DNA from: a virus
Virus record (IMG/VR): IMGVR_UViG_3300030329_005620
Span: 1 to 24,998 of that record
DNA: 24,998 bases
Strand: one strand, 5' to 3'
Shown: positions 4,384 to 24,204 of the stretch, piece after piece
Layout of the letters: the number at the start of each line of letters is the position of its first letter
Numbering within the stretch: the stretch's first letter is position 1
Position numbers and translations under genes: made by a program
The notes under the pieces: generated by a model
The model's database searches: none
What the model saw: the letters and a program-made list of their open reading frames with translations, nothing else
What the model was told of the DNA's origin: nothing

Positions 4384-5610
4384 TTAAGCAGGAACCATTT
4401 CTGCTTTTGGTTTTGCATAACCCCTGACCATTTTAATTTCGTCTTGAGTTACAAATTCACCATGACCAATAGTATATGCGGCATGACCGAATTCAGCAAT
4501 GTCAATACCTTGTGTTTCTTCTTCAAGTGAAACTCGCAACCCTATTACCATTTTTATGATAAACCAAACTATCAAACTAGAAGCAAATACAAACCCCCCG
4601 ATAATTCCTATACCATAAAGTTGAGTAACTATGGATGCATCTTCTTTGAAGATTCCAACTGCAAGTGTTCCCCAAATTCCTGCAATAAGATGAACTGATA
4701 ACGCTCCAACTGGATCATCAATTTTCAGTTTATCAAACATTGGAATAGCGAGAACTGCTAAACTTGCACCGATGACTCCTATAATAAGTGACAAACCTAT
4801 TGATGGATAATCTGGACCTGCTGTAATTGAGACTAATCCAGCAAGTGCACCATTTAACACCAAAGTAAGATCTACTTTTTTGTATAGAAGTTGTGTTATA
4901 ATCATGGCAGTTACTGCACCTGCGGCGGCCGCCATATTTGTGTTTAATATTACACTAGCAATAGCATTAACATCATCTTTAGTTCCCATTGCTAGTTGAG
5001 ATCCACCATTGAATCCAAACCAACCAAACCAAAGAATAAATGTGCCCAATGTTGCTAATGGTAAATTAGATGGTGGAATAAGATTTACTTTTCCATCATC
5101 AGTATATTTACCGGTTCTTGCACCTAAAAGAATAACTCCCGCAAGCGCTGCCCATCCACCAACGGAATGAACAATTGTTGAACCAGCAAAATCAGAGAAT
5201 CCCATCTCAGATAGAAATCCTCCGCCCCACGTCCACGCACCTTGTAGTGGATAGATAACACTAGCAAGTACAAGGACAAAAAGCATGAACGACCAAAATT
5301 TCATTCGTTCTGCTATTGTTCCAGAAATGATGCTTGCTGCAGTTGCAACAAACACCACTTGGAAAAAGAAATCTGACATACCAGAATGATCTCCGTCCGA
5401 GATACTTCCGTACATCAATTGATAACCTATTGCAAAAAAGGCCAGGCAGGACAATGAATACAAACAAATATTCTTTGTCAGAATAGCAGTTGCATTTTTT
5501 GTTCTAACCATTCCTGCTTCTAACATTGAAAAGCCTGCCGCCATCAACATTACCAGCGCACCGCTGAAAAGAAGTAGAAAGGTATTCAAGATATATTGTG
5601 TTTCATTCAT
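4384..5610 (-). CDS. amt: Ammonium transporter (Amt/MEP/Rh family)
   Basis: Inner-membrane channel importing ammonium. The 408 residues and about 11 hydrophobic helices match bacterial AmtB. The family signature is present near residue 145 (DFAGSTIVHSVGG), including the first pore His, and the second pore His occurs in SVHLIAGIWGTLAVGIF. The C-terminal cytoplasmic tail (LEEETQGIDIAEFGHAAY) has the conserved pattern contacted by PII/GlnK proteins, so host nitrogen signalling could still gate it. The SD aaggag precedes the ATG. There is no obvious truncation and all key residues are intact, so it should be functional. It is an auxiliary metabolic gene most likely taken from a marine alphaproteobacterial host, for supplying nitrogen during infection. 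It neighbours a phosphate-transporter gene. Confidence 0.96.
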   Translation of the reverse strand: MNETQYILNTFLLLFSGALVMLMAAGFSMLEAGMVRTKNATAILTKNICLYSLSCLAFFAIGYQLMYGSISDGDHSGMSDFFFQVVFVATAASIISGTIAERMKFWSFMLFVLVLASVIYPLQGAWTWGGGFLSEMGFSDFAGSTIVHSVGGWAALAGVILLGARTGKYTDDGKVNLIPPSNLPLATLGTFILWFGWFGFNGGSQLAMGTKDDVNAIASVILNTNMAAAAGAVTAMIITQLLYKKVDLTLVLNGALAGLVSITAGPDYPSIGLSLIIGVIGASLAVLAIPMFDKLKIDDPVGALSVHLIAGIWGTLAVGIFKEDASIVTQLYGIGIIGGFVFASSLIVWFIIKMVIGLRVSLEEETQGIDIAEFGHAAYTIGHGEFVTQDEIKMVRGYAKPKAEMVPA

Positions 5611-5685: not shown

Positions 5686-6123
5686 TTAAAATTTAGACAT
5701 AAATTTGGAGATTTGGTGAACAAATGGTAATAAAAGAACTGCCATAAACATATTGACGCCCGTATGTACTATAGCAATTTGTCTGGTAATTCCCGTTGGC
5801 ATACCATCTGAAACAAGAAGTCCAGCTAACCAAATAGTACCAGTAGTTCCTATATTTGCTCCTAGAACTGCTGCAATTGCCGCAGGAAGTGGAAGTGCAC
5901 CACCAGCAACTAAACCAATAATTGCAGTAGTAGATAATGATGAAGATTGCCACAATAGAGTCATAACAATACCACCAACAAACATATAGATAGGATTACC
6001 TAAAAACCATTGTAGATGGTCAATATTTCCCATGGCTTTCATGCCACCAGAGAACATTTTAAGACCAATATAAAAAATCACCAAACCAAGTAAGGTTTGG
6101 ATTACTGGATTATTCAATTCCAT
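5686..6123 (-). CDS. Na+/phosphate cotransporter family protein, single repeat
   Basis: PNaS (NptA/Na-Pi cotransporter) family. The two diagnostic elements are present: the QSSS motif in TLLWQSSSLSTTAIIGLV, and GANIGTTGT about 30 residues later. About four hydrophobic segments are visible. Full-length bacterial homologues contain two inverted copies of this unit and are at least twice as long. This 145-residue form has one copy and would have to dimerise, or be a derived half-transporter. I chose the ATG at 6123 because it has a spaced AAGAAGG SD and because the probable promoter would start RNA at about 6167. An ATG at 6168 would add 15 basic residues. It lies next to amt, suggesting paired N and P acquisition. 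Confidence 0.85.
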   Translation of the reverse strand: MELNNPVIQTLLGLVIFYIGLKMFSGGMKAMGNIDHLQWFLGNPIYMFVGGIVMTLLWQSSSLSTTAIIGLVAGGALPLPAAIAAVLGANIGTTGTIWLAGLLVSDGMPTGITRQIAIVHTGVNMFMAVLLLPFVHQISKFMSKF

Positions 6124-6173
6124 AGTCTGGACCTTCTTGATGAGTTTTGCTTTTTTACTTACTTTCATACAAC

Positions 6174-8294: not shown

Positions 8295-9011
8295 CTATTT
8301 ATGTGAATTGTGGACGTATATGGCGTCCATTCTACCTTGCCAATGTTTTTTATAATTCATCACATTCATCTGTCTCTCAGAAACCCCACCATGAGCGGTT
8401 TCAACAATTATTACTGGTTTACATCTCTCAAGTGTTTCCTTTGCTCCTACTAGAGCTTGGTATTCAAATCCCTCTATATCTAACTGAATTAAATCACAAA
8501 TTTGTAAATTTAAACTATCTATCTTTGTTGTTTTTTCAGAACCACTTTCATTTAAATTAATTCTGTGTGCTCCATGATTCTGAAATTGACCATAATGTTG
8601 TCTGGATTTATCTAAAGTCCATCCCTTGTCTTCATGTTCACCCAAAGCTTTTTTAAAGAATGTAATTTTGTTATTTACATCATATTTTTTTATATTCTTT
8701 TCTGAAACATATCTGTTCATCAATGACGGTTCAAATGTATATATTGTATCAAAGTATTGTGTATATAATATTGGCCAAACACCCATTCCTGCTCCTGCTT
8801 GTACAAGAACACGTTTCATTTTAACAGGATCTAACCAATCGAGATGTTCATTTTTAAAATCTTCAATATTATCAAACAATCCTTCTTCACCAATTGGCCA
8901 TGTCATCTTTTCTATGTTAGCATAATTAATATCTCTAGTGTAAAGTTTTGATTCTATTCTATCAATAAAATCATCAGTATAACAATGAAAAGTATCACTA
9001 TATTGTGCCAT
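8295..9011 (-). CDS. FkbM-family SAM-dependent methyltransferase
   Basis: 238 residues. The SAM-binding loop is RVLVQAGAGMGVWPILY, the acidic strand end is YTFEPS, and the later family signature is LIQLDIEGFEYQALVGAKETLERCKPVIIVE. These are the standard motif I, motif II and DIEGxE elements of FkbM methyltransferases, which O-methylate sugars or small metabolites. In phages such genes often modify surface glycans or virion sugars, but the substrate is not visible here. It lies immediately downstream of the tmRNA and upstream of the Cys-rich peptide. The same 12-nt sequence occurs at each end of the gene (9027-9038 and 8306-8317). Confidence 0.9.
   Translation of the reverse strand: MAQYSDTFHCYTDDFIDRIESKLYTRDINYANIEKMTWPIGEEGLFDNIEDFKNEHLDWLDPVKMKRVLVQAGAGMGVWPILYTQYFDTIYTFEPSLMNRYVSEKNIKKYDVNNKITFFKKALGEHEDKGWTLDKSRQHYGQFQNHGAHRINLNESGSEKTTKIDSLNLQICDLIQLDIEGFEYQALVGAKETLERCKPVIIVETAHGGVSERQMNVMNYKKHWQGRMDAIYVHNSHK
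8306..8317. repeat. 12-nt direct repeat flanking the FkbM gene, copy 1
   Basis: AATTGTGGACGT, identical to 9027-9038. This copy lies inside a hairpin TGGACG-TATATGG-CGTCCA at the 3' end of the coding region. Confidence 0.6.
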
Positions 9012-9026
9012 AATATCCTTGATTTA

Positions 9027-9038
9027 AATTGTGGACGT
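9027..9038. repeat. 12-nt direct repeat flanking the FkbM gene, copy 2
   Basis: AATTGTGGACGT, identical to 8306-8317. This copy forms one arm of the terminal hairpin of the tmRNA coding piece. Confidence 0.6.
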
Positions 9039-9205
9039 TTCTGTTTCAAGGTACGCCCAAACCCATCAACTTATGCGGCCATGGCCATAGAAGCTGAAGT
9101 ATAATCGTTATTATTTGCGATTAAGTTTAATGCACATTCACGGTAGTCGCTCACCGGATACCTAATATCCAACTTCACAATCAATCGAGTACCTTTACAT
9201 CCCCA

Positions 9206-9298
9206 TCAAGAAACAAGAATAATTTCTAAGATGTAATAAAAACCAATTATAATTCCAAGAATCAACACCCACAACATGATAATTCCCATGTCATCCAT
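9206..9298 (-). CDS. 30-residue membrane microprotein inside the tmRNA intervening segment
   Basis: The ORF starts at ATG 9298 with AAGGAG (9309-9304) five bases upstream. The first A of that SD is the last base of the tmRNA CCA. It encodes MDDMGIIMLWVLILGIIIGF followed by YYILEIILVS and TGA (ends 9206), two bases before the tmRNA 5' half. It fills the excised segment almost exactly. The peptide is one long hydrophobic helix with an acidic N-terminus, like the other microproteins in this window. Translation would need the precursor, or a separate transcript, before processing. Confidence 0.6.
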   Translation of the reverse strand: MDDMGIIMLWVLILGIIIGFYYILEIILVS

Positions 9299-9359
9299 TC
9301 GTGCTCCTTGGTGGAGATGGCCGGAATCGAACCGGCGTCTTAATTGCTATCTGAATACA

Positions 9360-10019
9360 TCAGACAGTATCATAATTATTTATAACTTCTTTCAATCTCT
9401 CAATATTTTCATCAGGATAGGCAAAAAATACTTGGGGATCACTATTAATAACTGCTATTACAATTACTACTTGTGATATTTTAATTCCTGTTCTTTCTTC
9501 ATACATTTTAGCATAAGCAGTACCTTGTAGCTTATAACTCTCAATCCATTCTTCACGTTTGGGTTTTGATGATGTTTTCCAATCTATAATAGAAAGTTCA
9601 TCATCATACTCTGCTATACAATCACATTGTCCCGCTACTCCCAACTCTTTAGACCATAAAGAAACTTCAAGTCCATATATATTACCAATATGAATATCTA
9701 AAATAGATTGAACTGACTTAAACAATTCAATATTATCTGGAAAATGTCCGCTTAAATAATCTTGCTTATTTTGCAGATAGTCTTCGATAATCTTATGCGT
9801 TTTTGTTCCTCTTCGTGAAGCTTGTGTAGAGATTTTATTTGCTTCTGCTTCTCCAACCCTGTTTCTCCACTCCTGTATAGAAGCTTTGGACAAAGATGAA
9901 AGAACTGTAGTGATGCTTGGGAAATTTCCATCTGGTGTTTCGTATAATCTTTTTCCTGAAATGTTTTTTCTTGTTATATCACCAATTATTTCAAGAGATT
10001 CATGATTAAAAGTTTTCAA
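9360..10019 (-). CDS. RecB/Cas4-like PD-(D/E)XK exonuclease
   Basis: 219 residues. The nuclease signature is visible in order: GTKTHKIIEDYL (motif with conserved His), GVAGQCDCIAEYDDELSIIDWKTSS (the D...D-x-K core), and LQGTAYAKMYEERTG (QxxxY motif). These are the marks of the RecB nuclease/Cas4 superfamily, and stand-alone versions occur in T4-like marine phages. It probably trims or resects DNA in phage recombination or host-DNA degradation. The start overlaps the stop of the FmdB-type gene by 4 bases. Its stop codon lies within the first hairpin of the tmRNA precursor, and the tmRNA promoter is within its last codons. Confidence 0.88.
   Translation of the reverse strand: MKTFNHESLEIIGDITRKNISGKRLYETPDGNFPSITTVLSSLSKASIQEWRNRVGEAEANKISTQASRRGTKTHKIIEDYLQNKQDYLSGHFPDNIELFKSVQSILDIHIGNIYGLEVSLWSKELGVAGQCDCIAEYDDELSIIDWKTSSKPKREEWIESYKLQGTAYAKMYEERTGIKISQVVIVIAVINSDPQVFFAYPDENIERLKEVINNYDTV
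9377..9384 (-). promoter_or_regulatory. T4-type late promoter for the tmRNA
   Basis: Exact TATAAATA on the minus strand within the last codons of the RecB-like gene. The predicted start at about 9371 is within a few bases of the first hairpin of the tmRNA precursor. Confidence 0.75.
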
Positions 10020-22810: not shown

Positions 22811-23161
22811 TCAAGCGACCCAATGGGTTTGGTGAATGGACTCGCATCCATCATAGTCTGAAATATGCCAACCATGAACATCTACAACCTCATCAGGAAC
22901 ATCTACAATCCTAAGCGCTGCATGAGATCCAGATGCTTTGTCCATACCAAGATCTTCGACAACACTGATCAAGCGATGGTCCATACGATATGCTTCGTAG
23001 TTTTCATCTTTGATTCCGAAATCATCGTTGTCAACATATCCGTACTCTGAATCAATATCCAGGTCAAACCTATCATTCAACATTTGAACCGCTTCTTTTG
23101 ACAAACCAAAACCCCCGAATTGGGAATTTAAAACCACTTTGTATCCTTTTGATTTTTTCAT
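22811..23161 (-). CDS. Conserved phage hypothetical protein, 116 aa
   Basis: Starts at ATG 23161 with AAAGGA upstream; the in-frame extension to 23338 is structured leader RNA, not protein. MKKSKGYKVVLNSQFGGFGL, RMDHRLISVVEDLG and ALRIVDVPDEVVDVHGWHIS match an uncharacterised phage family ending in a DYDGxExxxQxHxxW-like segment. Confidence 0.82.
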   Translation of the reverse strand: MKKSKGYKVVLNSQFGGFGLSKEAVQMLNDRFDLDIDSEYGYVDNDDFGIKDENYEAYRMDHRLISVVEDLGMDKASGSHAALRIVDVPDEVVDVHGWHISDYDGCESIHQTHWVA

Positions 23162-23545
23162 ATCATTCCTTTCGATAAGATTGAGAAAAAAATATTTTGT
23201 TTTTTGTTTTTTGTTTTTGCTTTTTAAAATTTTTTCTCTGGGCGGTCGTGCTACTCCCTCACTCCCCACTGACGGAGGAGCTCCATTCATTTCATTTTTA
23301 TTAAGAGGGATTTTAAAGAGTGGCTTGTTCCCACTCACGCAAACTCCTGACTCACTTCGGTCGCCGTGACTACCAGCCGTACTGCCTCCGAACTCTGCCG
23401 TCTTTAAGTATGTCTCTTAGTCAAACATACCGACATCGGAACTCCACAGGTCACTAGCGGGAACGGTAGGAGTGTCACCCGTTCCTATTTTCGTTTGGTC
23501 ATTTAACTCATTTTCTCTCTCTATGAATTATTTAATCTCAACTAC
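23162..23545 (-). ncRNA. Long structured leader or noncoding RNA
   Basis: About 380 transcribed bases between the promoter at 23552 and the 116-residue gene, with higher G+C than the flanks. Perfect hairpins on the minus strand: GGAACGG/CCGTTCC (23485-23479 with 23466-23460), GTATGT/ACATAC (23430-23425 with 23413-23408), TTCGG/CCGAA (23392-23388 with 23360-23356), GAGTGG/CCACTC (23336-23331 with 23323-23318), then an A-rich single-stranded tail before the SD. No coding signal across the hairpins. Not a class I know. Confidence 0.6.
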
Positions 23546-23551
23546 AGGAGT

Positions 23552-23580
23552 AGTATATCATCGTTTGATGCCAAAGTCAA
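23552..23580 (-). promoter_or_regulatory. Early sigma-70 promoter
   Basis: TTGACT (23580-23575), 17 bp, TATACT (23557-23552), with CTACTCCTGTAGTTGAG downstream, a one-base variant of the 30-nt repeat palindrome. Confidence 0.85.
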
Positions 23581-23593
23581 GTTTTTTGCCATT

Positions 23594-24025
23594 TTATTTT
23601 CTTGAATCTGCGATACTGATATTTCCATCAAACTTATTACATCTCTTATATTCCACATCAAAACCACGTTCGATTCTTTCTCTGTTGCCCCACTTGTCAA
23701 TCACACACTCAAGGATCGCATTCGCGAGTTCCTCATTCCTTGCTCCCCTTGTGGTAGCGGTATGGTCAGTGAAATGAAAACCTTTTCCGTTGCGACCATA
23801 GTGAATATGATATTCATGATTTGAGAAAGTGACCAAACCTTTCTTCTCCAATGCGACAAGTGCATTGTATCCAGCTCGTCCACGCTTTCCACTCTCAGCG
23901 GTTGAAGCGAAGAAACTTCTCAGGTCAGACTTGTAATGATAATCTTTTGCGGTGTCGATGAAATAGAGTCTCTCGGTCTTTCCAAGTTTTTTCCAAGTTT
24001 TTGTGACCAGTGCTTTATCAATCAT
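23594..24025 (-). CDS. Hypothetical early protein, 143 aa, possible winged helix
   Basis: Starts at ATG 24025 behind AAAGGA. MIDKALVTKTWKKLGKTERL, then GRAGYNALVALEKKGLVTFS, which resembles the recognition helix and wing of a winged-helix domain, and a basic C-terminal third. A DNA-binding role is inferred only from that resemblance. Confidence 0.72.
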   Translation of the reverse strand: MIDKALVTKTWKKLGKTERLYFIDTAKDYHYKSDLRSFFASTAESGKRGRAGYNALVALEKKGLVTFSNHEYHIHYGRNGKGFHFTDHTATTRGARNEELANAILECVIDKWGNRERIERGFDVEYKRCNKFDGNISIADSRK

Positions 24026-24097: not shown

Positions 24098-24204
24098 TTT
24101 TTTTGCTGGAAGGCCCTTGGGGTTTCCGGCCTGCCGTCCTTCACGCCCCTTCGCTATGCCACCACATAGCCAGACAGAATGTTAGCATCCCACCAGCAAA
24201 AAAA
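24098..24204 (-). ncRNA. Structured GC-rich element closed by a 12-bp inverted repeat
   Basis: TTTTTTTGCTGG (24098-24109) and CCAGCAAAAAAA (24193-24204) are perfect inverted repeats. The 83-base interior is GC-rich and contains GCTATG-TGGTGG-CATAGC on the minus strand and a GGCC/GGCC pair. It lies between the end of the 52-residue gene and the next promoter. Could be a 3' UTR-derived small RNA or a termination/processing element. Confidence 0.5.

Follow-up and report, generated by a model that had tools for sequence, protein, structure and literature searches.

A pseudoknotted RNA of ocean phages related to the orphan Ocean-VII hairpin and preceded by a start-X-stop minigene

Why would the early region of a phage genome spend some 380 transcribed bases on the space before one small gene? 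The question is raised by the minus strand of the IMG/VR virus record IMGVR_UViG_3300030329_005620 (24,998 nt, positions 1–24,998; hereafter the window), for which a sequence-only reading had proposed a long structured leader or non-coding RNA that might act as a regulatory RNA, a host-factor decoy or an early-acting small RNA. The structured stretch itself was confirmed, with a predicted promoter start at ~23545 and perfect stems of 7, 8 and 6 bp in addition to further helices. The G+C content is indeed higher than in the surroundings (0.49–0.53 at 23280–23459 versus 0.28–0.38 on both sides), and an A-rich spacer does precede the Shine-Dalgarno (SD) sequence AAAGGA. Beyond these features, we found a promoter-proximal AUG-N-stop minigene, a pseudoknot and a link to the Rfam family Ocean-VII. 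The elements of the locus are as follows:

23580–23552, minus strand: sigma-70-type promoter, TTGACT-17-TATACT plus the TG of an extended -10, from which transcription is predicted to begin at ~23545
23511–23503, minus strand: start-X-stop minigene ATG AGT TAA, 2 nt 5' of the core and ~35 nt into the transcript
23500–23317, minus strand: structured RNA core of 184 nt, beginning with the invariant GACC and ending with P6; matched by model R2, with 48 pairs tested for covariation
23485–23479/23466–23460, minus strand: 5' hairpin H1, GGAACGG/CCGTTCC, 7 bp, the loop of which joins the pseudoknot
23473–23468 with 23348–23343, minus strand: pseudoknot PK between the H1 loop (ACTCCT) and AGGAGT, spanning 23473–23343
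23459–23362, minus strand: central arm P0–P5, with pairing checked in each sequence and by pair counts
within 23459–23362, minus strand: P0 CGC/GCG, P1 GTGAC/GTCAC, P2 CTGT/GCAG, P3 TCCGA/TCGGA and P4 TGTC/GGCA
within 23459–23362, minus strand: P5 GTATGTTT/AGACATAC with the loop GACUAAG at 23422–23416
23430–23423/23415–23408, minus strand: perfect 8-bp stem
23336–23331/23323–23318, minus strand: P6 hairpin GAGTGG GAACAAG CCACTC, 6 bp, the portion known to Rfam as Ocean-VII
23316–23239, minus strand: variable 3' region, CCCTC/GAGGG enclosing CTCC/GGGG, unlike all relatives and with no terminator found
~23239–23181, minus strand: A-rich spacer before the ribosome-binding site, followed by AAAGGA and the ATG at 23161
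23161–22811, minus strand: gene for a 116-aa protein of PHROG 16527 (function unknown), apparently on the same transcript here

Single-sequence folding sets the whole stretch apart (z = -3.5, 0 of 100 shuffles equally good) and its inner 281 nt just moderately (z = -2.0), and the latter value is what speaks for a fold that arose by chance in G+C-rich intergenic sequence. Decisive for a real structured RNA was the comparative evidence, i.e. covariation and independent detection. Relatives were gathered from viral contigs with a pattern derived from the P6-type hairpin. The resulting 54 loci were mostly chance matches, as expected with 15 fixed bases, and included one set with long flanks like those of the window; only loci with conserved flanks were retained. 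Additional patterns from other conserved blocks returned the same set and a few further members, and a pattern comprising the internal loop only gave known members and chance matches but nothing else. Altogether, 19 distinct members were found, counting the window and the later find L212, and the 18 besides the window all originate from marine viral contigs. In records searched whole, including a contig of 134.5 kb, there was one copy per contig. Model scores left a clean gap between members (131–211 bits) and the next best sequence (19 bits). Model R2, which was built from 15 loci of the main group and from which the window and its closest relatives had been left out, detected the window over its full length with 115.5 bits (E 1.7e-26), and L062 and L025 were detected by this main-group model as well. 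L212, which was outside every model, scored 98.2 bits (E 4.5e-24); by inspection all its helices hold, with new pairs in P6 (GUCGGG/CCCGAC), P4 (AGAGG/CCUCU) and P5 (GUGAGUA/UGCUCAC).

Other sources yielded no further carriers. No match was obtained when three members were compared by blastn with 50,697 phages, and the first pattern was likewise without a match in 84,980 bacterial and archaeal genomes. The second pattern had 92 matches in the same genomes, and scoring 80 of these loci with the model revealed no RNA (best E 0.09). A model search of eight T4-like reference phages (HTVC008M, T4, Melnitz, SynMITS9220M01, AG-345-E15, KVP40, P-SSM2 and phiM12) detected no RNA either. Among phages that have a gene related to the neighbouring one of 107 aa, many of which are represented by contig fragments, the RNA was present only in two records that we already knew.

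For the analysis of covariation, 18 members were aligned with MAFFT, helices were assigned by hand and pairs were counted on the MAFFT alignment. Compensatory changes were observed in nine helices (H1, P0–P5, P6 and PK), one of them pseudoknotted. Changes on both sides occurred in 29 of 48 pairs compared to 16.8 in shuffles, a count that does not represent independent events because the sequences are related, whereas the control with slid partners preserves this relatedness. Of the alignment cells tested, 94.4% were paired versus 81.5% after column shuffling and 40–48% when partners were slid by 1–3 columns; the covariation score was 0.413 compared to 0.182 in shuffled and 0.06–0.11 in slid alignments. 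Both-sided changes were found in 5 of 6 counted pairs of H1 and in 4 of 6 pairs of P6. P0 alternates between CGC/GCG and CCC/GGG, P1 between GUCAC/GUGAC, GUGAC/GUCAC and GUGCC/GGCAC, and P4 occurs as UGUC/GRCA, UGCG/CGCA, UACG/CGUA, CGUG/CACG or AGGG/CCCU. In PK, which RNAalifold recovers unaided, three pairs are altered on both sides, with ACUCCU/AGGAGU replaced by UCUCUG/CAGRGA in the main group. As the main group has this different PK sequence, a switch between SD and anti-SD within the pseudoknot was rejected. A group I intron core (suggested by GACUA/UAGUC) and RNase P did not fit by element order or Rfam. Many unpaired positions are invariant, namely GACC, UA, GAGU, the CUAAG and AACA loops and ACGGCYGRU. 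Covariation, on which the sequence-only reading had staked its structured, early-acting RNA, is strong and extends to all nine helices, and the small RNA is the better of its guesses. With covariation, out-of-sample detection and conserved anatomy all opposing a chance structure, the probability of the latter is negligible, and it is near certain that the stretch is a real, strongly folded non-coding RNA of a group of ocean phages.

To our knowledge, host, context and function of Ocean-VII (RF03092), a 41-nt hairpin from sea-water DNA, have so far not been reported. The Rfam scan proposed by the sequence-only reading returned nothing at this locus at gathering thresholds, and at permissive thresholds solely a 19-base fragment of Ocean-VII (positions 19–37 only; 22.1 bits, E 3.4e-4), which is located in the last hairpin. 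The Rfam model covers 41 nt, of which 18 are unpaired and the remainder forms one hairpin, and its curated cut-off is 53.5 bits. P6 of the window (GAGUGG GAACAAG CCACUC, 23336–23318) has the 7-nt loop GAACAAG taken as criterion for Ocean-VII, and the likeness extends to the marine origin. Twelve of 14 member loci scanned matched the full 41-nt model with 55–69 bits, and most of the 15 main-group loci behind R2 pass the Rfam cut-off, while the forms in the window, L062 and L025 remain below it. Since 12 relatives match the full model, Ocean-VII represents the 3' end of the larger RNA, and the 3' strand of PK falls within its 18 unpaired 5' bases. Compared to the Rfam family, the full RNA has ~145 additional nt, eight more helices including the pseudoknot, a minigene at the 5' end and an exchangeable 3' domain. 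The score below threshold makes the RNA in the window a divergent homologue of the Ocean-VII-bearing RNAs and not a member by the Rfam criterion; judged by sequence, it is a full-length, divergent form of this orphan class. Ocean-VII is thereby assigned to marine T4-like phages as carriers, and gains a promoter, boundaries and a full pseudoknotted structure with predictions at the level of single residues.

The unit of ~380 bases and its description as a leader were only partly retained. Structured RNA is present, but the conserved unit comprises 23511–23317 rather than all 380 nt, and the 3' part (23316–23239) is not kept in relatives. Control of the 116-aa gene (22811–23161) by a cis-acting leader, such as a riboswitch or attenuator, could draw on the arrangement in the window, where no terminator was found between the RNA and the gene and where SD and start codon directly follow the A-rich spacer. 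In contrast, at least nine members have intrinsic terminators ~55–195 nt past P6, and the genes downstream, mostly located beyond these terminators, are unrelated: the large subunit of a T4-type topoisomerase II in L008, tRNA-Lys in L062, and in L060 and its kin families of unknown function followed by lysozyme and glucosyltransferases. A constant class of downstream gene on the same transcript, as expected for a leader or riboswitch, was thus not observed across relatives, and phages that carry a homologue of the 116-aa gene gave no such RNA by blastn. We therefore regard a dedicated leader as unlikely. The separate terminators and unlike downstream genes of the relatives indicate that the RNA acts mainly in trans. 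As the window lacks a detectable terminator before the gene, the RNA apparently reads into the 116-aa gene here and may double as its leader with a role in cis, or be excised by processing. The RNA is located ~20 kb upstream of gp32 and on the same strand in the window as well as in the 134.5-kb contig, and the gp32 proteins are 54–57% identical.

The same region bears on a coding function. The frame of the downstream gene is open for 59 additional codons up to a GTG at 23338, giving a frame of 175 codons, and translation of this extension had been named as evidence that would contradict an RNA. In none of the five phage homologues does the alignment begin before residue 66/67 of 175, a position inside the 116-aa gene, and the extension overlaps both P6, which covaries as RNA, and the A-rich spacer. 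It is hardly credible that this extension is translated, and with covariation present as well, neither of the two observations that the sequence-only reading had set out as refuting the RNA was made.

Downstream of P6, members of the main group contain a hairpin (AGAC...GTCG), of which there are at least three dissimilar versions whose distribution departs from the phylogeny of the core. L021 and L036 are 97% identical in the core and 94% in the next 110 nt, and just 53% in the 3' domain; L021 and L057 share 95% identity in the 3' domain and 85% in the core. These comparisons indicate that the 3' domain is swapped as a cassette between near-identical cores, which suggests continuing selection on specificity. 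In L043, L021, L048, L057 and L060, a tRNA-like arm (TAGCTCAGTAGTAGCG, TTCTAGATCCTCTAG) is contained within the terminator (GAGAGCCCC...GGGGCTTTTT), which resembles a decayed tRNA that was reused for termination. For the window, neither ARAGORN nor Rfam detected a tRNA-like domain in 23100–23620.

At the 5' end, the promoter of the window is one of several similar promoters in this early region; in relatives it mostly reads TTGACA-17-TATAAT (10–12 of 12 matches) and is located 33–55 nt upstream of the core. Between promoter and core, an ATG-NNN-stop within 25–35 nt before GACC is present in 14 of 16 members, compared to ~0.8 expected from shuffles, and in 15 of the 17 members checked when L212 is included (ATG GGT TAA, two bases 5' of GACC, with AGGTGAT upstream). 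Random 35-mers of the same loci contain an ATG-NNN-stop in 3.2% of cases, and open reading frames of other lengths show little or no excess before the core. Neither the second codon nor the stop codon is constant (AGT-TAA, TTT-TAA, ATC-TAG, AAA-TGA, GAT-TGA, ATC-TGA, TTC-TGA and GGT-TAA), and this variation across lineages favours translation over a fixed RNA motif. A point against it is that the Shine-Dalgarno match is weak in several members. A minigene follows only 5 of 55 other promoters in these loci, and in L062 and L048, where extra sequence separates promoter and minigene, the latter still adjoins the core, indicating that the minigene is linked to the RNA and not to promoters. The exceptions, L015 and L058, are close relatives with a replaced 5' region and without an exact AUG-N-stop; L058 has ATG ATT GTA TAA instead. 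In the clade of L015, L031, L041 and L058, where the usual minigene is absent, the ~250 nt on either side of the RNA contain a conserved G+C-rich stretch each, and these two flanking stretches show mutual complementarity (GGTCGGCCCGG... and ...CCGACGGGCCGG), perhaps forming a larger composite RNA. As a separate observation, TG nearly always precedes the GACC box (window 23502–23483, minus strand, and relatives), so that in many members another, very short open reading frame starts with NTG ACC (N being A, T or G); such a second mini-ORF is possible, and it is inseparable from the conservation of UGACC.

With its start codon, single sense codon and stop codon, ATG AGT TAA (23511–23503) has the format of the bar minigenes of phage lambda (AUG-AUA-UAA), which are likewise phage-encoded and cause accumulation of peptidyl-tRNA (fMet-Ile-stop; PMC8012679). 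In contrast to bar, the minigene described here varies in codon 2 (AGT, TTT, ATC, AAA, GAT, TTC or GGT) and is followed at a near-constant distance by a conserved, pseudoknotted RNA. The relation to bar is a resemblance rather than homology. We know of no comparable structured core at lambda bar.

Promoter, structure, boundaries in relatives, conservation of the minigene and the modular 3' domain are all shown by the sequences, and the best explanation overall, to which we assign an even chance, is an early, mainly trans-acting phage non-coding RNA that engages host translation via its minigene. The host-type sigma-70 promoter would drive the RNA early in infection, and a host ribosome would initiate on AUG-AGU-UAA and reach the stop codon after a single elongation step. 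It would then remain parked, and the folded core, starting ~26–33 nt 3' of the AUG, would lie immediately in front of the channel through which mRNA enters. In this way the RNA could hold or divert ribosomes or initiator/peptidyl-tRNA; alternatively, the ribosome might serve as a docking platform for the RNA. Specificity would be conferred by the exchangeable 3' domain. We infer translation of the minigene, the encounter of the core with the entry side of the ribosome and action in trans on translation. That the early RNA engages host ribosomes through the minigene is a tentative step, and the more specific proposal that the minigene-loaded host ribosome places the pseudoknotted body at the entry channel, thereby perturbing or redirecting host translation with the 3' domain as specificity cassette, is possible but more doubtful still. 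If the ribosome link holds, phages would have a new route to act on host translation with an RNA, and the AUG-N-stop offers a testable entry point to the function of Ocean-VII.

The main rival to action on the ribosome is a stable trans-acting RNA in which the ribosome on the minigene merely shields the 5' end from RNases, while the core binds another host or phage factor. Candidate partners are RNA polymerase, an RNase or a defence protein, with the RNA as decoy or inhibitor. The same covariation-backed structure is compatible with such a role, the many invariant unpaired positions suggest a fold made for protein or tertiary contacts, and an exchangeable 3' domain is consistent with an arms race. 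However, a length-specific AUG-N-stop exceeds the needs of a general 5' protector, and we consider this alternative possible, albeit doubtful.

Engagement of translation by a phage RNA has a potential precedent in GOLLD, which reportedly binds ribosomes (cited in PMC12286853). GOLLD and ROOL are structured phage RNAs with complex folds and unknown function that are often located near tRNA islands (PMC12286853), and several member contigs also contain tRNA genes. Together with the pseudoknotted, highly conserved and phage-borne nature of the RNA, this might point to a catalytic or self-processing ribozyme or to an RNA-only complex of the GOLLD and ROOL type. Yet no Rfam ribozyme, GOLLD or ROOL matched, and both of the latter are several times larger and unrelated in sequence and structure, which renders this possibility very unlikely. 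Phage T4 likewise has small stable RNAs, C and D (termed species 1 and 2), which are annotated in the tRNA region of its genome (AF158101), but the whole T4 genome lacks a match to the model.

Three other parts of the window deserve mention. Its tmRNA is a separate gene (8980–9401, minus strand); this tmRNA and that of the 134-kb contig G009 (in L095) carry the tags ANNNDYTSASMAMAA and ANNNDYTPAYAYAIAA and are circularly permuted, of the two-piece type, as has been described for Melnitz and other marine myophages (PMC9004378). At 24098–24109 and 24193–24204, a perfect inverted repeat of 12 bases (TTTTTTTGCTGG/CCAGCAAAAAAA) surrounds ~80 G+C-rich bases between two small genes and possibly represents a two-way terminator or another RNA. 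Judged from their translations, 4384–5610 and 5686–6168 (both minus strand) encode an ammonium-transporter-like protein and a fragment resembling a Na/Pi cotransporter, carried here by a T4-like phage.
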